Shown: piece after piece, positions 21,399 through 37,793 of the stretch
Layout of the letters: each line of letters opens with the position of its first letter
Numbering within the stretch: position 1 is the stretch's first letter
DNA from: Telmatospirillum siberiense
GTDB lineage: Bacteria > Pseudomonadota > Alphaproteobacteria > Rhodospirillales > Magnetospirillaceae
Direction: 5' to 3'
DNA: 64,000 nucleotides
Assembly (NCBI RefSeq): GCF_002845745.1
Contig: NZ_PIUM01000030.1
Span: 1 to 64,000, forward strand
Translations under genes and position numbers: made by a program
The notes under the pieces: model-generated
What the model saw: the letters and a program-made list of their open reading frames with translations, nothing else
Told to the model about the DNA's origin: nothing
Databases searched by the model: none

Positions 21399-23480
21399 AT
21401 GTCGTTGCGCGTGGGGACGTTGATGCAGATCCTGTTCGGCGCGGTGCTGCTGATCATTACCGGGGTCCTGCTGTCCGATGTCTGGGCGATCGTGCTGGAG
21501 CGTCACTCCGCGGAACGGGCCGTTGAGGTGAATAAAGCCGGTCAGTCCATCTTTTCCGCCGTGCAAAGCCTGCGGATCGAGCGCGGGCGGGCGCGTGTCG
21601 GTTTGCAGGGGGCGTCGCCGGCAAGCGAGAGGATCCGCGGCGACATCGTCGCGATGCGCGCGGGCGCCAATCCCGCGATGGACCAACTGCTGGCCATCTG
21701 CTCGACCATTGTTTGCGCCGAACCGGAGGAGATGGACGCGCTTCGGCGCAACCGGGCGGATGTGGACAAGGTGCGGGAGGAGGCGGATCGCGATCTCGCT
21801 CTCCCGCTCGAGCAGCGCAACACCGGTATCGCCGAGCGCTGGAACAAGACCGCCAGCGTACTGATCAGCCGCCTGGAGATCCTGTCTAACCATCTGTCGA
21901 CGGAGGTTCGTCTGGTCGATCCGGTCATCGGCGAGGCGATGGCGATCAAGCAGGCCGGATGGATCTTTCGGGATTCGGCCGGCTTCATGGGGACGCTGTT
22001 CAGCGAGGCCATACAAAACGGCGCCATTTCGCAAGCGAACGCCGCCAAAATCGCAGACTATGATTCGCGAATCGACGTGGCCTGGTCGATCATTGCCGAT
22101 CTGACTGCCAGGCCGGGGGCGCCGGCCGGGGTCGTCGAGGCGGTAAAGAGGACCCAGGCGGAATATTTTGACGGTTTTCGGCCGCTGCTGAAGCGCATTC
22201 GCACGGCGCTGATCGCGGGGAGTCCTTCCCCCGTTGGAATGGACGAGGTCATGGCGGGATCCGACAAGGCCTTGACGGCGATCATCGGGATTCCCGCGCA
22301 GGCCTTGGCGGCCGCCCGTGAACACGCCGAAGACCAGGCGGCGACGGCGAACCGTCATTTGATTGCCGAATTGGCTCTGCTCGTGGCGGCTCTGGGAGTG
22401 GGAATCCTCGCTATCGCCGTTATCCGGCGGCGTATCGTTCGGCCGATCCACGGCATCGTTTCGGCCATGCAGACCGTCGCGGCGGGGGATCTGTCGACCG
22501 AGATCCCCTATCGCGATCGGCGTGACGAAGTCGGCGATCTTTCGGATGCCTTGGCCGTGTTCAAGGAGCAAGCCCTCGAAAAGGAACGGCTGGCCGCCAG
22601 CCAGAAAGAGGCGCAGGCGCAGAAGGAACGCCGGCAGGCGGCCGTCGAAAGCGCCATCGCCGATTTCGAGAAGGCGGCGACCGAGGCGCTGGAGGCTTTT
22701 TCGACGGCGGCCGGACAACTGACGGCCATGTCGGACGGTATGTCGCGGTCGGCCGGGGATACCAGCGTACAGGCTTCGGCTGTCGTTTCCGCCTCCGACA
22801 TGACTTCCGAGAGCGTGCAGACGGTCGCCGGCGCCACCGAGGAACTGTCCAGTTCGATCAGCGAGATCTCGCGGCAGGTAACACAGTCGGCGTCGGTTTC
22901 CGGGCGTGCCGTCGAACAGGCGCAGCGGACCGACAAAACAGTGAATGGTCTGGCTGAGGCGGCGCAAAGAATCGGCGATGTGGTGAAAATGATTCAAGAC
23001 ATCGCCTCGCAGACCAATTTGCTGGCATTGAACGCCACGATCGAGGCGGCTCGCGCCGGCGAGGCGGGCAAAGGATTCGCCGTGGTGGCCGGAGAGGTGA
23101 AAAGCCTGGCCAATCAAACCGCCAAGGCGACGGAGGATATCACCGCGCAGATATCCCTGATGCAGGCGGTGACCGGCGAATCCGTCGAGGCGATTCGCGA
23201 GATCGGCGTGACCATCTCCGAAATCAGCGGCATTTCGGCCGCCATCGCCTCGGCGGTGGAGGAGCAGGGGGCGGCAACCCAGGATATCGCCCGCAATGTG
23301 CAGCAGGCGGCGCTGAGCGTCCAGGAGGTCTCCAGCAATATCGCCGGCGTCAGTCGGGCCGCCGGGGAAACGGGGAATGCCGCGGCCGGCGTCCGGACCG
23401 CGGCCGGAGAGTTGAACGAGCGTGCCGATATGCTGCGACGGCAGGTGGCTTCCTTCCTGGCGGGTATTCGCTCTTTATAA
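21399..23480 (+). CDS. Methyl-accepting chemotaxis protein
   Basis: A 693-residue chemoreceptor starting [10 protein letters not shown]. Membrane helix 1 lies at about 8-30. A long helical periplasmic domain (about 31-318) has an [11 protein letters not shown] motif reminiscent of nitrate/nitrite-sensing NIT domains, a weak resemblance. Helix 2 lies at about 320-341, a HAMP domain follows ([15 protein letters not shown]), and the signalling domain has the conserved hairpin tip [20 protein letters not shown] near 535-555. In-frame earlier starts at 21342 and 21351 exist but are less likely. Confidence 0.93.
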
Positions 23481-26797: not shown

Positions 26798-28057
26798 ATG
26801 AGACGAGTTGTCATCACCGGGCTCGGGATGGTCACGCCGCTTGGCGTCGGCGTCACGGCCAATTGGGATCGCTTGACGAAGAGCGAATCCGGCATTCGTG
26901 CCATCGAACATTTTGATACGTCGGATTTGCCGGCGAAGATCGCAGGGCTCGTGCCGACCGGCACCGGGGATCCGCATCTCTTCAATCCTGATGATGTGTG
27001 TTCGTCCAAGGACCGCCGGAGGATGGACGATTTTATCGTCTATGCTCTTTGCGCCGCGATCGAGGCCGTCGAGGATTCGGGCTGGAAGCCCGAAGCCGAA
27101 GAGGACCGCGAACAGACCGGCGTGATGATCGGTTCGGGGATCGGCGGGTTGCCGGCGATTGCCAATGGCGCCCTGGTTCTGAAGGAAGGCGGTCCGCGCA
27201 AGCTGTCGCCCTTCTTCATTCCGGCCAGCCTGATCAATCTTGCCTCGGGCCACGTATCGATCAAATACGGTTTCAAGGGACCCAACCATGCGGTGGTCAC
27301 CGCTTGTTCGACCGGAGCGCACGCCATCGGCGACGCCTCTCGGCTGATCATGTTCGGTGACGCCGATGTGATGGTCGCCGGCGGTGCCGAAGCGGCGGTC
27401 TGCCGCCTCGGGGTTGCCGGATTCTGCGCCGCGCGTGCTTTGTCGACCGGATTCAACGACACGCCTACCAAAGGATCCCGTCCCTGGGACAAGGATCGTG
27501 ACGGCTTCGTCATGGGCGAGGGCGCCGGTGTCCTGGTTCTTGAGGAATACGAGCATGCCAAGGCTCGTGGCGCCAAGATCTATGGCGAAATCATCGGCTA
27601 CGGTATGTCGGGCGATGCCCATCATATCACGGCTCCGGCCGAAGACGGCAACGGCGCCTTCCGTGCGATGCGGGCGGCTGTCAAACGGGCCGGCATCGCT
27701 CTCGAAGAGATCGATTACATCAATGCCCACGGCACTTCGACGCCTCTCGGCGACGAAATCGAACTGGGTGCGGTGAAGCGGTTGTTCGGCGACCACGCCT
27801 ATAAGTTGGCGATGTCGTCGACGAAATCGGCGATTGGTCATTTGCTGGGGGCCGCCGGGAGCGTCGAAGCGATTTATTCGCTCATGGCGATCAACCATGG
27901 TGTGGTTCCCCCGACGCTGAACCTCGACAACCCCTCCGAAGCTTGCGACATCAACTTGGTTCCGCATGTGGCGCAACAGCGCAAGGTGCGGGTTGCTCTG
28001 TCCAACTCCTTCGGTTTCGGCGGCACCAACGCTTCTCTGATTTTCAGGGCTGTTTGA
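26798..28057 (+). CDS. fabF: 3-oxoacyl-ACP synthase II
   Basis: This 419-residue condensing enzyme elongates acyl-ACP. It has the catalytic Cys in TACSTGAHAIGDA, His in NAHGTSTPLGD and His in KSAIGHLLGAAG, and the C-terminal NSFGFGGTNAS. It starts RRVVITGLGMVTPLG, as is typical. It lies between acpP and mltG, the classical order. Confidence 0.98.
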   Translation: MRRVVITGLGMVTPLGVGVTANWDRLTKSESGIRAIEHFDTSDLPAKIAGLVPTGTGDPHLFNPDDVCSSKDRRRMDDFIVYALCAAIEAVEDSGWKPEAEEDREQTGVMIGSGIGGLPAIANGALVLKEGGPRKLSPFFIPASLINLASGHVSIKYGFKGPNHAVVTACSTGAHAIGDASRLIMFGDADVMVAGGAEAAVCRLGVAGFCAARALSTGFNDTPTKGSRPWDKDRDGFVMGEGAGVLVLEEYEHAKARGAKIYGEIIGYGMSGDAHHITAPAEDGNGAFRAMRAAVKRAGIALEEIDYINAHGTSTPLGDEIELGAVKRLFGDHAYKLAMSSTKSAIGHLLGAAGSVEAIYSLMAINHGVVPPTLNLDNPSEACDINLVPHVAQQRKVRVALSNSFGFGGTNASLIFRAV

Positions 28058-28064
28058 TGCATCG

Positions 28065-29078
28065 ATGAACCGCTGGCTGGCCCGTTTCCTGGTCGTTCTG
28101 GTCATCATCATCGCGATGGCCGGGACGGCGTTGTGGTGGGGGCGAGCCAAAATCGCTCAACCGGGGCCGGCTATGGAGTCTGCCTCGGTGGTGATTCCCA
28201 GGGGAACGGGAACCGCCGACATCGCCTCGCTCTTGCAAGAGGCGGATGTCATCGATCATCCGTGGCTGTTTCTGACAGCCGTCCATCTGTCGGGCCATCA
28301 AGCCCTGATGGCCGGAGAGTATAATTTCCCGGCCCATGCCAGCATAGCCACCATCATGGATATGATGCGCCGTGGGCAGACCGTCGTCCATAAGCTGACC
28401 ATCGCCGAAGGCCTGACGGTCTATCAGGTCATGGCGCAGATGCGACAGGCCGGCGGATTGACAGGCAACGCCGCACAGAGCCCGGAAGAGGGAAGTCTGC
28501 TGCCGCAAACCTATTTTTATTCGCTGGGAGATACCCGTGACGCCTTGCTGGCGCGGATGACCCACGCGATGAACGAACTGATCGACGAGTTGTGGCGGCG
28601 TCGCGCACCCGACCTGCCGTTCAACAATAAGATCGAAGCCCTCATCCTGGCCTCGGTGGTCGAACGTGAGACCGCCATCCCAGAGGAGCGGCCCCATATC
28701 GCCGCCGTTTTTCTCAACCGGCTGCGGCTGCATATGAAGCTGCAATCGGATCCGACGGTCATTTTTGCCGTGAGCAATGCCGAGGGCATTCTCGACCGGC
28801 CGTTGACCCGCGATGATCTGGCGGTGAAAAGCCCCTACAACACCTATCAGGTCGAAGGGTTGCCGGCCGGTCCCATCTGTAATCCGGGTCGAGCCAGTCT
28901 GGAGGCCGTCCTTCATCCGATGGCCGTCGATGATCTCTATTTCGTCGCTGACGGATCGGGGGGGCACGTCTTTTCGAAATCGCTTACCGATCACAACAGG
29001 AACGTCGGCAATCTACGGCGTCTGGAGAATGGACAGGTCGTCCCTCCCGCTGTCAAGAAGAGCAAATCGCCTCGTTGA
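28065..29078 (+). CDS. mltG: Endolytic transglycosylase MltG
   Basis: This 337-residue inner-membrane lytic transglycosylase cuts nascent glycan strands. It has an N-terminal membrane helix (about 7-25), a LysM-like segment and the YceG domain. The catalytic Glu lies in ASVVERET, with conserved SPYNTYQVEGLPAGPICNPG and YFVADGSGGHVFS. The gene begins 7 bases after fabF. Confidence 0.97.
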   Translation: MNRWLARFLVVLVIIIAMAGTALWWGRAKIAQPGPAMESASVVIPRGTGTADIASLLQEADVIDHPWLFLTAVHLSGHQALMAGEYNFPAHASIATIMDMMRRGQTVVHKLTIAEGLTVYQVMAQMRQAGGLTGNAAQSPEEGSLLPQTYFYSLGDTRDALLARMTHAMNELIDELWRRRAPDLPFNNKIEALILASVVERETAIPEERPHIAAVFLNRLRLHMKLQSDPTVIFAVSNAEGILDRPLTRDDLAVKSPYNTYQVEGLPAGPICNPGRASLEAVLHPMAVDDLYFVADGSGGHVFSKSLTDHNRNVGNLRRLENGQVVPPAVKKSKSPR

Positions 29079-29135: not shown

Positions 29136-31607
29136 ATGACAGGTTTCGCGAAGGCGTTTCACCTGTTACTCGAACGATTGAGCAAACGTTCCGATAGCGA
29201 ACATGAGCAGGCGCTGATCCGCGTAGCGCTCGTCGGCGGTCTGTATCTCTATTTCCGATTGGTCGATGGAGCCCTTCCGATCCCGGGCATCGATCTCGAT
29301 GCTCCCAGTTGGATTTTCGGCTTCTACGAGTTTCTGTCGATTGGCTACGTCCTGTGGATCCTTGCCAGCCCTGCGCGGAATCCCTTGCGGCGTTTCCTGG
29401 CCATGTCGACGGATTTCGGCATGATTTCCGTGAATATATTTCTTGGCGGAGAAGCCGGCACGGCCCTCTACCCCCTTTATTTGTGGGTTATTCTCGGCAA
29501 TGGCTTTCGCTTTGGTCTGAAATATCTTTTGATTTCCGCGGCGATGGGCGTCGGCGGGTTCACCCTGATCATCGCTTTCACCTCGCCATGGAAAGATCAT
29601 CCGGCGTTGTCATTCGGCTTGCTGGGCGGTCTGGTGGCTATTCCGGGCTATGCGGCATCGCTCATTCGCAAGTTGACGGAAGCCAAGGCGCAAGCGGAGG
29701 CGGCGAGTCGCGCGAAAAGTCGTTTCCTGGCAATTATCAGCCATGAACTGAGGACACCGTTGAATGCGATCATCGGCATGTCCGATCTCTTGTTCCGGAC
29801 CAGGCTGGACGACGATCAGTTCGACATGGCTCGCACCACCTATCTGTCCGGACAGGCTTTGCTTTCCCTGATCGATTCCGTTCTGGATTTTTCGCGGATC
29901 GAGGCCGGCAAGACCGTGATCGTCCGCGAGACCATCGATCTGCATCGCAATCTGGTCGAATTGGTTGCGGTTCTGCGTCATCAGGCGACCGAAAAGGGCT
30001 TGTCTCTGCTGGTCTTCCTTGGATCTGACGTTCCTCCGGTGCTTCAGGCCGACTGGCCCCATATCCGACAGATCTTGACCAACCTTCTGGTCAATGCCGT
30101 CAAATTCACCGACAGCGGCCGCATCATGCTGCGGGTGCAGGTCCGTCCTTCGTTATCGGGGGACAGGCTGTTCTTCGAAGTGGAGGATACCGGTATCGGT
30201 ATCGCCGAAGAAAAGCTCGAGGTGATCTTCGACGCTTTCGCCCAGGCCGAGGATACGATGAACCGCCGGTTTGGCGGAGCGGGTTTGGGATTGGCCATTT
30301 CCCGGCAACTGACCGAATTGATGGGAGGTGCCCTGGCGGTGGAAAGCAGGGTGGGCGAAGGCAGCCGTTTTTCCTTTGATCTACCGCTTATGCCGGTCGC
30401 TTACGAACCGGTTCTGCCGTTTCCCTTGCATGTGATCGCCTTCTGCAAAGACCGTGCGATAGCCTCACGCGTCAGTGGGCTGGTAGAGCGGGTCAGCTTC
30501 CCCGCCGCCGCGAGTCAGGTCAAGGCGGCTCTGGCCACGGCGAGTATCCGCAAGCAGACGGCTTTGCTGCTGGACGAGACAGAGGGGCGCGAGGTGGAAG
30601 ATCTTATCGCGACAGCGCATATCCAGGGCGTCCCTATCCTGGTCGTCGGTGATCCCACTGGTCGTTTGACCGGCGCATTGGTTTCCATCAACGCCGATGC
30701 GGCGGAGCCGGTGTTGATCAACGCCTTGCGTGCCTGCCGGATTTTCGCGGGACGGGGGTTCTACGTCGATGAGGGGATTCCGGGGGCCGCCGAAATGTCA
30801 CGTCGGGTGCTCATCGCCGAGGATAACCGGGTGAACATCAAAGTGATCCGCATGATTCTCGAAAAGGCGGGGCATCAGGTAACCATCGTGGAAACCGGCG
30901 ATGCGTTGCTGGATGCGATGGCCGAGGGGGCTTGGGATATCGTGGTGGCCGATGTCAATATGCCTGGCATTCCGTTGACCGAGGTCGTCAAACTGCATCG
31001 GATGGCGACGCCGCATTTGCCTGCTTTACCCATTGTCGCCCTGAGTGCGGATGCGACTATCGAGACGCGTCGCGAATGCGAGGCGGCGGGTATTGATGAC
31101 TACCTGACCAAGCCGGTGGTGGCGGGGCTTCTGCTTTCGACGATAGACCGGCTGACTCGTGACGCCTTTCCGTTGGGCGAAGTCGGAGAGCTTGCCAACG
31201 TGTCTGATCTGACCAGACACCCGTCCTATTCCGGCCCGGACGATCTGCCGGTCGACTGGCCGACCATCGATGCGCTGGTGGAACTGGGGGACCGGCAGTT
31301 GGTGCGCGAACTGTCTGCGGATTTCATCGAAGATGCTTCGAATCTGATCGATGCCATGGAGCGTTCCGCCGCCAGTGGCGACAATTTGCAGTTTCGAGCC
31401 GATTGTCATGCCTTGCGAAGTTGCGCCGCCAACGTCGGTGCCCGGGGGGTTACCCGCCTTTGCCAGGATAGTGTTTACAAAACGGGGGATTTTACCCGCG
31501 TCGGACCATCCTTTTGTGTTCGCGCGCGGGAAGAGTTAACGATTTTCCGTAGGGAGATGGCGCATTATCTCGAACAAAATACGCCATCCGCCCAACGGCT
31601 TTGCTGA
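29136..31607 (+). CDS. rpfC: RpfC-like hybrid sensor histidine kinase
   Basis: An 823-residue DSF-type sensor. The N-terminal cytoplasmic segment (RLSKRSDSEHEQALIRV) and five-helix membrane region (about 28-180) strongly resemble Xanthomonas RpfC, including SPLY-like TALYPLYLW, GNGFRFG and LLGGLVAIPGY. Then come HisKA (ISHELRTPLN, H203), HATPase (NLLVNAVKF, DTGIGI, GGAGLGLAIS), an extra degenerate receiver-like segment (about 430-545), a true receiver (RVLIAEDN, VVADVNMPG with D606, YLTKPVVAG) and a C-terminal Hpt domain (CHALRSCAANVGA, H758). It is convergent with the RpfF-like gene. It is predicted to sense cis-2-unsaturated fatty acids and pass phosphate to the RpfG-like receiver nearby. 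Confidence 0.85.
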   Translation: MTGFAKAFHLLLERLSKRSDSEHEQALIRVALVGGLYLYFRLVDGALPIPGIDLDAPSWIFGFYEFLSIGYVLWILASPARNPLRRFLAMSTDFGMISVNIFLGGEAGTALYPLYLWVILGNGFRFGLKYLLISAAMGVGGFTLIIAFTSPWKDHPALSFGLLGGLVAIPGYAASLIRKLTEAKAQAEAASRAKSRFLAIISHELRTPLNAIIGMSDLLFRTRLDDDQFDMARTTYLSGQALLSLIDSVLDFSRIEAGKTVIVRETIDLHRNLVELVAVLRHQATEKGLSLLVFLGSDVPPVLQADWPHIRQILTNLLVNAVKFTDSGRIMLRVQVRPSLSGDRLFFEVEDTGIGIAEEKLEVIFDAFAQAEDTMNRRFGGAGLGLAISRQLTELMGGALAVESRVGEGSRFSFDLPLMPVAYEPVLPFPLHVIAFCKDRAIASRVSGLVERVSFPAAASQVKAALATASIRKQTALLLDETEGREVEDLIATAHIQGVPILVVGDPTGRLTGALVSINADAAEPVLINALRACRIFAGRGFYVDEGIPGAAEMSRRVLIAEDNRVNIKVIRMILEKAGHQVTIVETGDALLDAMAEGAWDIVVADVNMPGIPLTEVVKLHRMATPHLPALPIVALSADATIETRRECEAAGIDDYLTKPVVAGLLLSTIDRLTRDAFPLGEVGELANVSDLTRHPSYSGPDDLPVDWPTIDALVELGDRQLVRELSADFIEDASNLIDAMERSAASGDNLQFRADCHALRSCAANVGARGVTRLCQDSVYKTGDFTRVGPSFCVRAREELTIFRREMAHYLEQNTPSAQRLC

Positions 31608-31661
31608 CTCATTGAAACGAGGCGGTGCACCAGGTCTCATCCAGCGGAAAGGTCTAGCATA

Positions 31662-32618
31662 TTAGGCGCTGGCCCGGTGGGTTTCGTCCTCTACGATATC
31701 GGTGCGCGCGACGCGTCTCTCCTGCGCGGCTACCAGGTGCTGCATCTTGCGCAAATCGCGCGGATCCAGGGTCAATGCCGTCTCAACCCAAAGATCGGTG
31801 ATATTCATCATCTCCTCCAACGTCACCGGGGAGACCATGTCGCGCACTTTGGCGATGGCCATTCTTGATTTCGAAGCCCTTCTGTGCTGTTCGATGTAGC
31901 GAGATACCGCGAGTGTGCCGGCCCCATCCTCGGCGAGGACGTCGACAATCCCCATGTCGTACATATCCTGGGCCGAATAAAGTTGCCCGCTGGTCATCAG
32001 GCGTTCGGCGCGAGCCCCGTCCAATCGGCGCGAAAGGAAGCTGTATGCGCCCATGCCCGGGAAGAGGTTGAAAAGAATTTCCGGAAGCCCGAACTTCGCG
32101 CTTTTCTCGGCGATGATGACATCATGAGCCAGTGCGACCTCGAAACCGCCGCCCAACGCGTCGCCCTGGACCAGGGCAATCGTGCAAATAGGCAAATTCA
32201 TGCGGCTGGCACGCCGATGCTGCACGTGAATGCAACTGTGCGCATAATGGCGCAGGCCTTCCCGGTCGCCTATTTTGATCATTTCCTGGAACCGGGTGAG
32301 GTCACCCCCCAAGTTATAGATTCCCGCAAGGCGGGAGGCGAGAATCATGTACTGTATTGGTGAGTGTTCCGAGGAAAGGTGGGACTTTTCGACGGCATCG
32401 AGCACTGCGGCGAGATCGCGGAGCAATCCGAGGGTGAAACTCGGACGGCCCGCCGGTTTCATATATTGCCAAAGGATCTTTTCCTCCGCTTCGTAGCAAA
32501 CGTCCAACTCCGGCAAATCGGAGATGGAGGTTAGCCATGATCCGCTGTCCTGTTGTCCGGACGTTTGATCGAGAGCAGTCTGATAGTTGATGACTTGGGA
32601 ACGAGCGTGGTTTTGCAT
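31662..32618 (-). CDS. rpfF: RpfF-like DSF synthase (crotonase fold)
   Basis: A 318-residue crotonase-family protein matching RpfF rather than ordinary enoyl-CoA hydratases. It has NLGGDLTRFQEMI, IALVQGDALGGGFEVAL, LPEILFNLFPGMGAYSF and LEEMMNITDLWV near the end. The two catalytic glutamates known in Xanthomonas RpfF (E141 and E161) appear as E160 and E180 with the same 20-residue spacing. RpfF dehydrates 3-hydroxyacyl-ACP and releases the cis-2-unsaturated acid by thioesterase action. An N-terminal extension of about 19 residues (Gln and Ser rich) is unusual. The ribosome binding site is GAGAGG, seven bases before ATG. It is divergent from the RpfG-like gene. Confidence 0.88.
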   Translation of the reverse strand: MQNHARSQVINYQTALDQTSGQQDSGSWLTSISDLPELDVCYEAEEKILWQYMKPAGRPSFTLGLLRDLAAVLDAVEKSHLSSEHSPIQYMILASRLAGIYNLGGDLTRFQEMIKIGDREGLRHYAHSCIHVQHRRASRMNLPICTIALVQGDALGGGFEVALAHDVIIAEKSAKFGLPEILFNLFPGMGAYSFLSRRLDGARAERLMTSGQLYSAQDMYDMGIVDVLAEDGAGTLAVSRYIEQHRRASKSRMAIAKVRDMVSPVTLEEMMNITDLWVETALTLDPRDLRKMQHLVAAQERRVARTDIVEDETHRASA

Positions 32619-32812
32619 TGTTGCCTCTCAATGACGATATTTGACGTGTGATGAAAGGATGCGTTTTTGCAGCATCGGTGAGTGTTTTTGGGGAAGTCCA
32701 TCCATTGCTGCATTGCATAAAATAGCATAGAATTAACATTCATAAGTATAAAAACGAGTTATTCATTTTTATTTAAAATAAAATTTGAACAATATGCGGT
32801 TGGGGGTCGGTT
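32619..32812. promoter_or_regulatory. AT-rich divergent promoter region of the rpf-like module
   Basis: These 194 bases between rpfF and the RpfG-like gene are far richer in A and T than the surrounding genes, chiefly from 32700 to 32795. Both genes must start here, so co-regulation is likely. I cannot assign promoter boxes with confidence. The RpfG-like gene uses a TTG at 32813 behind GGGGG at 32802-32806. Confidence 0.5.
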
Positions 32813-34951
32813 TTGTCATTTATAGTTGTTGTTGATGATCGTGCCACAAATCGAAATATACTGTGTCGTCTGGCGAGGTCATTAGAGGCGGGGGCTGAGG
32901 CCGTAGCGTTCGATCGTCCGGCATTGGCTCTGGCGGCCATGAGGGAACGGCTGCCGGATCTGATCATTACCGATTTCAATATGCCGGAGATGGATGGCGC
33001 GGAGTTCGTGACGCGATGCCGCCGCGATCTCGCCGATCCGGAAATTCCGATCGTCGTCATCACCGCCTATGAGGATCGGGATTTTCGGTACCGGGCTCTT
33101 GAAGCCGGAGCCACCGACTTTCTGCTTTCTCCGATAGATCACCGGGAATTCCGGACGCGGACGGGCAATCTTCTGACGATCGGCCGTCAACGCCGGATCA
33201 TTCGCCAGCGTGCCACCTTGCTCGAACGTGAACTTGACGAGGCCTTGCGTCAGCAGGCCGAGGCGTTGCGGCGCAGCGAGATGAAGTTGCGGCGTCTGAT
33301 CGATACGGTTCCCGCTCTTATCGTCACCAGCGACGGCGAGGGGCGCTGTCTGATGGTCAACAGTTACCGCAATCTTCTGGCGTCGGGCCCGGACGTGCAG
33401 AACGGCACCGTCGAAGGCCTATTTGGGTCCGACTATTGGCGTCGTCACGCGCCGCTGGATCGGCGCGTGCTGGAGACGGGGCAAATGCAGCCCCCCTTTG
33501 AGGAATATCTATCGGACGCTTTCGGCCACGAACGTGTCTTTTTGACCTCAAAGACGCCATTGTTCGCCAACGACGGTCGAATCGACGCCGTGGTTACCGT
33601 CTCCCTCGACGTCACCGACCGTAAGGAGGCGGAGGATTGCCTGGTCTATCCGGCGGATTACGACCATGTGAGCGGCCTGCCCAACCGCCGGATGGCGATC
33701 GATCGCCTGTCGCAAGAGATGGTGCGTGCCCTTCCCGATGAGACCCGGGTCGCCCTGCTTTATGTCGATCTCGATAGCTTCAAAAAGGTGAACGACCTTG
33801 TCGGCCGCGCTGTGGGCGATCGTCTACTGGTCAATGCCGCGGCACGCTTATCCGATTGCGTGGGAACCGCTGATACGGTCGCCAGGCTGTCCGGCGACGA
33901 ATTCCTGGCCATATTGCCGGATTGTAAGCGCGATCATCCGTTGGACGCGGTGGCCCACCGGATGATTGATGCGCTGGACAGGCCCTTTTTAATCGATGGT
34001 GAGGAATTTCATATCGGCGCCAGCGTCGGTATATCGATATTTCCCGAAAACGGTTCGGCGCCCGAGGACTTGATTCAGCATGCGAAAGCGGCGATGTATC
34101 GGGCAAAAGCCGCCGGCGGCGCATGCTATCGCTTCTTCTCCGAAGAAATGACCGAGAGCGCCGCGCGCCGGGTCGAAATGGAGGCGTTGCTTCAGCACGC
34201 CTTGGAGCGCCAGGAGTTCCACTTGGCCTACCAGCCCATCGCCGACGTCCGGACGGGCGATGTCATCGGAATGGAGGCGCTGCTGCGGTGGAACAGCCGT
34301 GAATTGGGCACCGTGCCGCCGGACTCCTTCATTCCGCTGGCCGAGGAAACCGGGCTGATTGTCCCCATCGGCCGATGGGCCCTCAAAGCCGCCTGCCGTC
34401 AAGCCGCCGACTGGCAGCGCGCGTCAGGGAAAGCCGTGACCATCGCGGTCAACGTTTCCTATCGTCAATTCGTGGGGAACGATTTTGTCGCGGAGACCGC
34501 CGCGGCATTGGCCGAAACCGGGCTGCCCCCAGAGACCCTGGTGCTGGAAATTACCGAACGGCTGCTCATGCGGGATGTCCGTCACGCCCTCGATGCCCTT
34601 GATCGCCTGCGAAAAATGGGAGTCCGGCTGGCTCTGGACGATTTTGGCTCCGGCTATGCGTCCATCATGTATTTGAAGCGTTTCCCCTTCAACGCCCTGA
34701 AGATCGACAAGGCTTTCATCGCCGATGCGCCGGACAATCCCGATGGCGGAGCGCTCGTCTCGGCGATCATCGGCATGGCCCAGAGCCTCGGTCTGGAAAT
34801 CGTTGGAGAAGGTGTGGAGACGAAGGCCCAACTGGATTTTCTCAAAATCCATGGTTGTCATCATTATCAGGGGTATCTGATCAGCCGTCCGTCGGAAGCG
34901 GAGGCCTTCGAACGTCTGATGGCGAACGGGCGCGCGGCCGAATCACCCTGA
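32813..34951 (+). CDS. RpfG-like receiver fused to PAS-GGDEF-EAL
   Basis: A 712-residue response regulator. The receiver (1-125) resembles RpfG ([21 protein letters not shown] with D54, [14 protein letters not shown]). The usual Lys after beta-5 is replaced by Ser106. A helix (about 130-165) and a PAS domain (about 165-275) follow. The GGDEF domain has SGDEF near 361-365, a variant that may still be active. The EAL domain is complete: GMEALLRW (EAL near 487-490), [34 protein letters not shown] and HHYQGYLIS. In known DSF systems RpfG carries HD-GYP, so here the output is EAL-type hydrolysis, GGDEF synthesis or both. Its stop overlaps the convergent ROK-kinase gene by 9 bases. Confidence 0.85.
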
Positions 34952-36796
34952 TGGAGGCGGGTCTTCTTGCTGGGGCGCCAGGGGCAGGGTGATGCTGAAG
35001 ACCGATCCACGACCGAGGCGCGAAGCCACCCAGACATTCTGGCCGAGAAGATGGGCCGTCCTCTGGACGATCGAAAGACCCAGGCCCAGACCCTTCGTCT
35101 TGTCGCGCGACGGATTGTCCAACTGGTAGAAGTCTTCGAAAATCATCTGCAGCTTGTCGGTCGGGATGCCGGGACCGGTATCGTATACCTGGATGAGGAG
35201 ACGGTTGCCCCTCCGGCGACAGCCGATCAGAATTCCTCCCTTCTGCGTGTAGCGGAAGGCATTGTGCACCAGATTCCGGCACATGCGTTTGGCGAGGACG
35301 CGGTCTGTTTCGACCAGGGCCCCGATCGCATGGGTGCGAAAGCTCAAACCCCGTTCGTCGGCCAGGTTGCGGTATTCGTCGGCCAGTTCGTGCAAGATCT
35401 CGGTCACCGGAAAAACCGTGACATGGGATGAAACCATGCCGGCTTCGAACGCGGAAATATCGAGCAGCGCCTTGAGCAATTCCTCACCGGCCATCATCGA
35501 ATTATGCAGCAGCGAGAGCGCCGTCCTGGCGCGTGGTTCGAGATTGCTCATCTCAAGAACCTGTAGATAGAGATTCATCGCCTGGAAGGGTTGCCGCAGG
35601 TCGTGGCTGGCGGCGGCCAGGAAGCGAGATTTGGCGGCGTCCGCCAAGGCGGCTTCGGTCTTGGCGACCATCAATTCCCGCTGGGTCAACAACAGGTTGA
35701 TTTCCATCTGGGAAAGGCTGTCCGTCTCGGGGCGGGGGCTTTCCGCCTCTCCCTCTCCGCGAAGCGGAGGCAGCGGTCGTTCCGGCAGCGGTGGCGTATC
35801 CGGATCCGGAGGGTCGCGGGTCAACCAGATAGTCTCGGGGATCGGGTCGCAATCTTGCGCAACCGATGGTTCTGTCGTGACCGCAAATCCGCTTTCCGGC
35901 TCGCCTCCCGGTGCCGGCCAGAGCCATGCGGCTCCCCGGACTCCGCTTGAATCGCCATGTTTGGGGGGGCGAAGACTGGTGTGGACGGTATCGGAAAAGA
36001 CCCACTGCCCCCAGAGCCTTGGAACGGTTTCGTAAAGGCGGGCGATGTTGGACATCCCCCCTCCGAGCACGATGACGTGGGGGTCGATGATATTGATGAC
36101 ATGGGCCAGCGCGCGGGCAAGACGCTGTTCATAGCGTGCCAGGCTGACCTCGGTCTGGGCATCGCCGGCGGCCAAAATGTCCCGGGCGGAAAGACCGCGT
36201 CCGTCGTCGCGGGAGAAAGCGGGGCCGGACAGGAAGGTTTCGATGCAGCCCGCGCGCCCGCAATAGCAAGTGGGCCCGGGACGCTCTCCGTCCGTGGGCC
36301 ATGGCAGCGGATTGTGGCCCCATTCCCCGGCGATGGTGTTGGGGCCGGACAGCAACCGGCCGTTGATAACGATGCCGCCGCCCACGCCGGTGCCGAGGAT
36401 GACGCCGAAAACCACAGGGGCGCCTTTGGCGGAGCCATCCGTGGCTTCGGAGAGGGCGAAGCAATCGGCATCGTTGGCCAGGCGGATGGGACGCTTCAGG
36501 ACGTCGGCCAGATCGCGGTCGAGCGGACGGCCGATCAGACAGGTGGAATTGGCGTTTTTGACCAGTCCGGTGGCCTGTGATAGAGCGCCCGGGATGCCGA
36601 CGCCGACTGATGCCCCCTCTCCCAGCCGGGCCTCCATGTCCTCGACCAGCGAACGGATCGCGGACAACGTGCCGTGATAGTCGCCGGCAGGGGTCGAAAC
36701 GCGGAGACGGAGGTTTTCCCGACCATGGGCATCGATTGCCAGCCCCTCGATCTTCGTTCCTCCGAGATCGATGCCGATTCGCCAGTTCTTATTCAC
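34943..36796 (-). CDS. ROK sugar kinase fused to a histidine kinase
   Basis: A 617-residue fusion. Residues 1-about 300 are a full ROK kinase ([38 protein letters not shown], and the zinc cluster [10 protein letters not shown] near 177), of the fructokinase or glucokinase type. A Pro-rich linker of about 80 residues joins a complete histidine kinase: [11 protein letters not shown] with H398, [17 protein letters not shown] and GLGLGLSIV. No membrane helix is seen, so it is a soluble kinase that could sense a sugar or sugar phosphate. GTG at 36796 fits the ROK start and overlaps the stop of the upstream gene (GTGAATAA). An earlier ATG at 36856 would add a segment without ROK character. Confidence 0.82.
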
Positions 36797-37793
36797 TTGC
36801 TGCCCATGATTCCCTAGACGCGTCCGGCGGCTCGAATGCGGCGACGATCGGGGCATGGTAACTGTCGGGAGGCCGGTGTACCAGTGCGGGCGACATCAAT
36901 TCATCACCCAGAGCCTCGTTATGCGCTTCGGTCGCCACATACCAGCCGAGGAGCGAGCGCGACACGAGAATGTGATCCAGCATGAGGGGGCGTCCGTGAT
37001 GAATGGCCGAGTAGCGCCGGCTTTCGGGAAGGCTGCGATCGATTGGCACCAGGGTGCGCATGGCCAGATGCCCGTTGCCGGTGTCTTCCTCGTCGCCCCG
37101 GATGGCACGGACCGGGACCTCGCTGTCCCGTGCGTTGAAGTCGCCGCAAACCGCGATCAAAGCCTGAGGGTCCTCATCGAAGATCTCATCGATCAAAAGT
37201 CGCGCCTCCAAGGCCTGACCGGCTTGTTTGACCGCGGCCAGGAAGAATCCCTGCGCCCATCCTCCGACGCTTTTCCAGACGCCGTGATCCTTTTGCCCGG
37301 CGACGAAGGCGGCACGGGGCGCGCGCAAATGCAGATTGAGGACATGCAGATGGCACTGTCCCGCGTCGATTCTGACATAGAGCAACGGCCGATCCCACTC
37401 AACGGCGATCCCCTCGCCTCCGAAGACGGGAGAATATTGGGGGGGAGAGACCAGATCGTGCCAAAGCTGACGGTGCCGGCCGATGGGCCAGCGGGACAAA
37501 ACGATCAGGTTGTGGCGATCCGAAGGTCGTTTCCCGGCGCGATTGGTGCTGACGGTTCTGTGAAAATCGGCGTAAGGAGTGCCCTCAAGCAGCTGGTCAA
37601 GAGCGCCGAGGTCGCGAGGGCCGCGACGGCTGACGGCGCGGGCGTTGACCTCCTGGAGGCAGAGAACGTCGGCGCGCAGTCTTGCCAACTGGGGGCGCAG
37701 AATGGCCAGGCGATCCGGAAAATCGCTTTCGCAGCACGGCCGGTCGTCGAGGCTTTCAAGATTGAAAGTAGCGATCTTCAGCCTGGAGGTCAT
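36789..37793 (-). CDS. Endonuclease/exonuclease/phosphatase family protein
   Basis: A 334-residue EEP-fold hydrolase. It opens LKIATFNLESLDD, continues with LCLQEVNARAV, and has AVCGDFNARDSE and MLDHILVSRSL. These are the metal and catalytic positions of the DNase I/EEP fold. The substrate is unknown; the family includes nucleases, sphingomyelinases and phosphoinositide phosphatases. The ATG at 37793 is preceded by GGGAGGGGAT, an excellent ribosome binding site. The ROK-histidine kinase gene starts inside its 3' end, so the two are translationally coupled. Confidence 0.85.
   Translation of the reverse strand: MTSRLKIATFNLESLDDRPCCESDFPDRLAILRPQLARLRADVLCLQEVNARAVSRRGPRDLGALDQLLEGTPYADFHRTVSTNRAGKRPSDRHNLIVLSRWPIGRHRQLWHDLVSPPQYSPVFGGEGIAVEWDRPLLYVRIDAGQCHLHVLNLHLRAPRAAFVAGQKDHGVWKSVGGWAQGFFLAAVKQAGQALEARLLIDEIFDEDPQALIAVCGDFNARDSEVPVRAIRGDEEDTGNGHLAMRTLVPIDRSLPESRRYSAIHHGRPLMLDHILVSRSLLGWYVATEAHNEALGDELMSPALVHRPPDSYHAPIVAAFEPPDASRESWAASE

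Follow-up and report, generated by a model that had tools for sequence, protein, structure and literature searches.

The window studied here, a stretch of 64,000 nucleotides from Telmatospirillum siberiense (contig NZ_PIUM01000030.1), contains an rpfC-like gene, rpfF and a response-regulator gene, all three of which are open and intact (Table 1). The rpfC-like gene and rpfF are convergent, with 54 bp separating their stop codons, and the response-regulator gene lies beyond rpfF. The initial annotation had described the three genes as RpfC-like, RpfF-like and RpfG-like parts of a quorum-sensing module for diffusible signal factor (DSF). Sequence comparisons support such a module as far as RpfF, RpfC and their linkage are concerned, but the third gene does not encode RpfG.

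Table 1. Positions of the rpf genes, their intergenic region and neighboring genes in the window.
Feature	Position	Strand	Description
rpfC-like hybrid sensor kinase	29136..31607	+	823 aa; N-terminal sensor, five-helix input, HisKA (H203), HATPase, REC (D606), Hpt (H758)
RxDSExxQ segment of rpfC	29187..29210	+	R18, D20, S21, E22, Q25
rpfF, DSF-family signal synthase by homology	31662..32618	-	318 aa
A+T-rich divergent gap between rpfF and the response-regulator gene	32619..32812	.	194 bases, 35.6% GC (window, 61.4%)
Response regulator	32813..34951	+	712 aa, TTG start; REC (D8, D9, D54, T84, Ser106), PAS_4, GGDEF (SGDEF), EAL
ROK-HisKA-HATPase fusion protein	34943..36856	-	637 aa, Pfam
fabF and mltG (YceG)	26798..29078	+	upstream of rpfC

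The putative synthase and sensor

The rpfF product scored 360.8 bits against the broad family model NF006452 (PRK08788), exceeding the cut-off of 177 bits that we used for all RpfF counts below (those for the order, class and phylum include the genome of the window itself). When compared with solved structures, its best four matches were 7zq7, 3m6m, 6dgn and 5fus (177–201 bits), of which 3m6m and 6dgn are labeled RpfF, 7zq7 crotonase family and 5fus putative enoyl CoA hydratase; the next match scored 58 bits, so that 119 bits separate it from the lowest-scoring of these four. The RpfF tree comprised 75 rows, and a starred branch with a value of 100 divided 67 RpfF rows (two of which are PDB chains) from eight ordinary hydratases. 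The window sequence and four rows from its family formed a group (99, starred) within 22 rows of the same class (97, starred), and two further same-class rows, L073 and L113, were placed among rows of other classes. Note that "same class" is a taxonomy label, which we took as Alphaproteobacteria from Telmatospirillum and the named relatives, that the RpfF tree has long branches, and that all trees reported here were computed quickly and leave many forks unresolved. One of the 11 crotonase-family places in the genome of the window is RpfF. Further, RpfF scores in the survey of the order were 334.6 bits or higher in 12 of 248 genomes, and the next match reached 99.1 bits. The tree and the scores place the window crotonase in the RpfF clade, apart from the enoyl-CoA hydratases, as the initial annotation had expected of a phylogeny. 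That annotation had also pointed to two catalytic glutamates spaced as in Xanthomonas. These residues, E160 and E180, are indeed 20 residues apart and occur in 66/66 RpfF rows, but they also occur in 18/18 ordinary hydratase rows. Because ordinary hydratases have both, the pair is not diagnostic of RpfF.

In the sensor, Pfam detected HisKA, HATPase, REC and Hpt domains. The hydropathy plot showed four clear membrane segments within residues 25–178 and a weaker one around residues 86–125, a pattern compatible with the five helices (one of them weak) proposed at the outset. The REC domain matched 3m6m_D, the RpfC receiver in an entry that also holds RpfF, with 84 bits, and the next receiver solved alone with 62 bits. 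According to a passage of Cai et al. (2017; PMC5391125), R15, D17, S18, E19 and Q22 of Xanthomonas RpfC are essential for DSF sensing. In the window, R18, D20, S21, E22 and Q25 have a spacing identical to that of these residues in X. campestris RpfC, and all 12 RpfC rows of the order that were inspected read RxDSEHEQ. Among 43 aligned RpfC rows, the number with the conserved residue was 40 for R, 41 for D, 36 for S (three others have T), 43 for E and 40 for Q. The strict pattern RxDSExxQ was present in 28 of the 33 same-class RpfC proteins and in 7 of 10 others; L053, L092, L093, L088 and L089 lacked it outright, and L069, L084 and L113 had T for S. Because none of 927 other open reading frames (ORFs) of at least 300 aa in the same loci carried RxDSExxQ in the first 330 residues, the motif is unlikely to be due to chance.

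The phosphorelay residues H203, D606 and H758, together with D563, were found in all 43 aligned RpfC rows. For Xanthomonas RpfC we take the kinase histidine to be H198, and the match between A183 of the window and A178 of that protein rests on this position. A183, likewise present in 43/43 rows, would align by its spacing to the kinase histidine with the A178 mentioned in a passage of PMC5391125. The alignments assign the sensor to the RpfC type, with an RpfC-type membrane input and all five membrane-near residues predicted to sense DSF; the comparison of the membrane domain that had been suggested as a check thus agreed with the annotation.

The RpfC input domain was detected in 13 of 119 relatives, 12 of which also have RpfF. 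The thirteenth (G993, locus L114) has a weak match of 59 bits ahead of a GGDEF domain and no crotonase over the RpfF cut-off. Further, in L076 and L077 one RpfC protein contains two RpfC-type membrane inputs beside a REC-HD-GYP protein, which looks like a fusion of RpfH and RpfC.

The response regulator and its counterparts in relatives

The third protein has the Pfam architecture REC-PAS_4-GGDEF-EAL. It is not RpfG: the defining HD-GYP output is absent and PAS_4-GGDEF-EAL stands in its place, so that only the receiver of the annotated RpfG-like protein deserves that description. When a profile of ten such receivers was run against the genome of the window, the window receiver scored 225.4 bits, followed, at 102.5 bits, by that of a REC-HD-GYP protein encoded on a different contig and then by matches of at most 69.1 bits. 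This unlinked REC-HD-GYP protein (L115:5273-6376, plus strand; about 155272-156375 of contig C75) is a possible stand-in for RpfG. With a similar profile of the order's receivers, REC-HD-GYP receivers adjacent to RpfF scored 104–140 bits, and RpfC and other receivers in the loci scored 56 bits or less. Judged by these scores, the window receiver is kin to the receivers of REC-HD-GYP proteins both in and out of Rpf clusters. Note that the profiles applied to the loci were built from sequences of the order and favor these, and that genes in the loci are our own ORF calls.

Receivers normally carry a conserved Lys at position 106 (K109 in CheY). Among 44 aligned receivers, D8, D9 and D54 were present in all and T84 in 43, with S in one. 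At position 106, the 34 receivers without HD-GYP had Ser (33) or Thr (1), which holds for both types of output, and the ten receivers joined to HD-GYP had Lys (9) or Arg (1). A PAS_4 domain followed the receiver in seven of the eight non-HD-GYP regulators scanned with Pfam (the window, L049, L054, L055, L060, L071 and L092, not L039). In the window, the GGDEF motif reads SGDEF, and the EALLRW, DDFGSGY, LKID, EGVE and QGY motifs are present.

A tree was also computed for 38 GGDEF-EAL rows. In it, one paralogue from the genome of the window grouped with 13 of the order's regulators (including L003; 92), and the remaining three same-class regulators grouped elsewhere (99, starred). The RpfR-type rows formed a group of four (99, starred), a group of six (95, starred) and one lone long row. 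Because this tree splits the regulators and sets the RpfR-type rows apart, the Rpf receiver probably acquired GGDEF-EAL at least twice, and probably not from RpfR, the forks in question being partly unstarred. Eight changes of output type are required on the receiver tree. Further, a profile of the window PAS gave no match to RpfR-type proteins at E 1e-3. The window regulator thus differs from RpfR in having a REC domain, in the position of its GGDEF-EAL part and in its PAS, and neither the GGDEF-EAL tree nor the PAS profile lends support to an RpfR to which a receiver was added.

RpfF over the cut-off was present in 24 of 385 genomes of the class, in 62 of 398 of the phylum and in 3 of 9 further relatives, in addition to the 12 genomes of the order. 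We compiled 46 distinct same-class RpfF loci: 17 from the order and relatives, 24 from the class survey and 5 from the phylum survey (G967 was left out). In the phylum survey, 23 of 63 RpfF places were examined, 20 of them hand-picked for spread; 31 of the 40 left out belong to family f216. RpfC was near RpfF in 33 of the 46 same-class loci, and a receiver protein was present in all 33. Its output was a histidine kinase (REC-histidine kinase) in 17, PAS-GGDEF-EAL (REC-PAS-GGDEF-EAL) in 15 and HD-GYP (REC-HD-GYP) in one (L113). Among 15 loci of other classes, ten had RpfC; eight of these had a REC-HD-GYP protein, and the other two showed no receiver protein.

Within the order, RpfC and a receiver protein were found around rpfF in 12 of 14 RpfF places, so that the side-by-side conservation called for by the annotation was largely observed, with about 3–4 kb of other genes separating rpfC from rpfF in L050 and L051. 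The regulator was located beyond rpfF in all 12 places of the order with RpfC, and before rpfC in 15 of the 16 loci with RpfC in the class survey. In L039 and L049, from relatives of the order, the regulator output was a histidine kinase. Because same-class RpfC loci pair with either kinase or GGDEF-EAL receiver proteins, RpfC appears to face a swappable REC-PAS output.

Proposed signaling pathway and alternatives

We consider it probable that the locus is a DSF-type quorum-sensing module in which RpfC relays to the neighboring REC-PAS_4-GGDEF-EAL regulator, with cyclic di-GMP (c-di-GMP) as the output. What the sequences themselves provide is RpfF and RpfC membership, the conserved residues for sensing and phosphorelay, linkage among relatives and the EAL signature motifs; we infer the identity of the signal, the relay partner, the direction of the change in c-di-GMP and the binding of RpfF to RpfC. 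RpfF would convert an intermediate of fatty-acid synthesis, the pathway from which two papers (PMC4542539, PMC13220807) derive its substrate, into a cis-2-unsaturated fatty acid. RpfC would bind the signal at its N-terminal RxDSExxQ segment and autophosphorylate at H203, and the phosphate would then pass through D606 and H758 to D54 of the neighboring response regulator. The regulator would in turn change c-di-GMP, most likely because its EAL phosphodiesterase is switched on; its GGDEF domain may be regulatory only. Before the signal accumulates, the REC domain of RpfC probably restrains RpfF, as in Xanthomonas, in which this domain represses RpfF at low signal according to a passage of PMC13220807.

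Several observations weigh against this pathway. The window RpfF missed the cut-off of the curated RpfF equivalog NF053515 (235.5 bits, cut-off 550 bits) and so does not qualify as an equivalog as this model defines it. L053, L092 and L093 keep the module despite broken sensing residues, and the output is not constant, since it is a kinase in 17 of 33 loci. Further, the window receiver has Ser106 where Lys is usual, which leaves the read-out of phosphorylation in question. Motif patterns were incomplete in several GGDEF-EAL relatives, namely the two congeners L040 (GGDEF) and L111 (GGDEF, DDFG), as well as L044 (EAL) and L046 and L047 (later EAL motifs). The AlphaFold model of the regulator, made with three sequences, was poor (mean pLDDT 51). 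Finally, the unlinked REC-HD-GYP protein in the same genome is a candidate for the true partner of RpfC.

Among the alternatives, it is unlikely, though worth weighing, that the response regulator itself senses DSF through PAS_4 in the manner of RpfS or RpfR, with phosphorylation by RpfC being secondary. PAS_4 recurs in seven of the eight regulators scanned, and a passage of PMC4504480 states that Xanthomonas RpfS binds DSF through PAS_4 and that RpfR binds the Burkholderia DSF (BDSF) through its PAS. However, the window PAS profile found no RpfR-type match at the threshold given above, the GGDEF-EAL parts were not derived from RpfR in the tree, and L039 keeps the module without a PAS. We regard as improbable a second alternative, in which the main target of RpfC is the unlinked REC-HD-GYP protein, in parallel with RpfC and RpfG in Xanthomonas, and the adjacent regulator is a separate c-di-GMP enzyme. 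The receiver of that protein (367 aa by ORF call) is second only to the window's in its genome, and its 102.5 bits are close to the scores of RpfF-adjacent REC-HD-GYP receivers elsewhere. However, it is encoded on a different contig, and its receiver is basal to the Rpf-linked receivers in the tree. A receiver protein accompanies RpfC and RpfF in each of the 33 same-class RpfC loci and is not HD-GYP in 32. That the crotonase is an ordinary enoyl-CoA hydratase beside RpfC by chance is most improbable: it matches ECH_1, shares its catalytic glutamates with hydratases and falls short of NF053515, but we reject this identity on the basis of the tree and of the linkage to RpfC in relatives, and the gap to the next structure also speaks against it.

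The module that we favor resembles the RpfF-RpfC-RpfG system of Xanthomonas campestris in having homologous RpfF and RpfC that retain the residues for sensing and phosphorelay, and in the convergence of rpfF with rpfC; its receiver is kin, in a broad sense, to the receivers of REC-HD-GYP regulators. It differs in its PAS-GGDEF-EAL output in place of HD-GYP, in the Ser for Lys in the receiver and in the position of the regulator gene beyond rpfF. As in the RpfF-RpfR systems of Burkholderia and Cronobacter, RpfF adjoins a PAS-GGDEF-EAL protein; unlike the window regulator, RpfR has neither a REC domain nor an RpfC partner; its GGDEF-EAL part falls into separate groups in the tree, and the window PAS profile does not match its PAS. 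The rpfFCG cluster of Leptospirillum, as presented in passages of PMC8357829, is likewise an environmental DSF system with RpfC, but it retains an HD-GYP RpfG and has rpfR candidates elsewhere. Pseudomonas aeruginosa PA1396 has an RpfC-related five-helix DSF input domain; in contrast, it senses the DSF of other species, and binding depends on helices IV and V (passages of PMC6536496). Xanthomonas RpfS resembles the window regulator as a soluble DSF-linked signaling protein with a PAS_4 domain, but it is a histidine kinase and its PAS_4 is N-terminal (passages of PMC4504480).

In the parts of two reviews that we consulted (PMC4504480, PMC13220807), two core DSF pathways are distinguished, RpfC-RpfG and RpfR. 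Our literature search covered titles, the starts of abstracts and passages, with subscription papers mostly outside it, and within this scope we found no description of a same-class RpfC module and none of a REC-PAS-GGDEF-EAL or REC-PAS-kinase partner of RpfC. The remark in the annotation that such systems are little described in Rhodospirillales is in line with the titles and abstract starts, which showed no such system there or in Alphaproteobacteria. Because subscription papers were mostly outside the search, this silence is weak evidence of novelty.

We tentatively propose, as a speculative extension, that there may be a third core DSF architecture in Alphaproteobacteria. In this architecture, RpfF and RpfC would drive a family of receivers with Lys replaced by Ser, mostly with PAS_4 and with an interchangeable output, either a histidine kinase or GGDEF-EAL, the latter probably recruited at least twice. 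The regulator would integrate phosphate from RpfC with a PAS ligand, perhaps DSF, and in the genus of the window a fusion of a ROK sugar-kinase domain with a histidine kinase would add an input of carbon status to the same receiver. If true, this would be a third DSF wiring, in a class with RpfF in 24 of 385 sampled genomes. A constant synthase and sensor with exchanged outputs would provide natural chimeras for testing the partner choice of RpfC. The proposal also raises the question of how phosphorylation is passed on by a receiver that lacks the switch Lys. Because these alphaproteobacterial genes, which look suited to making and sensing a fatty-acid signal between cells like those of some plant pathogens, pair with a different response protein, our results suggest that fatty-acid signaling is wider and more modular than the reviews describe.

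Neighboring genes and other rpfF loci

The divergent gap between rpfF and the response-regulator gene is probably the promoter region of both genes; a scan for promoters and terminators found no strong site, the promoter-like matches in this gap being weak. Upstream, 57 bp separate mltG from rpfC. The gene order fabG-fabF-mltG-rpfC is retained in the two congeners L040 and L111; neither fabF nor mltG was detected in the remaining 13 loci tested.

The ROK-kinase gene lies tail to tail with the regulator gene and overlaps it by 9 nucleotides. We searched 61 genomes for the ROK/histidine-kinase fusion, scoring no more than 20 candidates per genome. Near-full-length matches were found in four of the five genomes of the genus and in none of the other 56; the copy in G986 was flagged for an in-frame stop. 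In L039, from another genus of the same family, a kinase that is 71% identical over 257 residues to the ROK-kinase part is joined to an Rpf receiver; the second-best match by score was 29% identical. Because L039 fuses a related kinase to an Rpf receiver, the comparison suggests that the ROK-kinase and the Rpf receiver may work together, and the ROK-HisKA-HATPase protein is a possible further input to the module.

In the congener G986, RpfF and the RpfC input were not matched, an absence that is probably due to a contig end. Contig C465 of G986 and the contig of L003 are 8454 bases each and both contain the ROK-kinase gene; from size and content, we infer that they are the same contig. L003 has a 97%-identical receiver and, where its contig ends, the initial 54 residues of rpfF. 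No match was found in G043, of the same genus, of which the 0.9 Mb of sequence are too small to judge absence.

RpfC was not found in 13 same-class loci. Three of these (L052, L070 and L074) stop at a contig end, and L052 shows the tail of RpfC. L042 and L045 (G113 and G097) are second RpfF copies, the full module being present in the same genomes. A REC-PAS-HisKA_2 protein was found in L055, and a GGDEF-EAL protein lacking REC in L073 (at a distance of about 6 kb), L091 and L095. Nothing was recognized near RpfF in L061, L072, L075 and L094. On named plasmids of Methylobacterium, Methylorubrum and Sphingomonas, rpfF is located beside a GGDEF-EAL protein without REC, which is the RpfR arrangement.

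L113 (G988), from the same family as the window, has RpfF, RpfC and REC-HD-GYP on a 12.7-kb contig of a metagenome-assembled genome; because its RpfF groups with another class, it may represent transfer or contamination. Family f216, with small genomes, accounted for 33 of the 62 genomes with RpfF in the phylum survey; RpfC was present in all three of its loci examined, and in two of them a receiver protein beside RpfC was not found. Further, an RpfF-like crotonase with 36% identity to the window RpfF was located at 22430-23068 of NZ_CP060058.1, a 100-kb plasmid of Escherichia coli.

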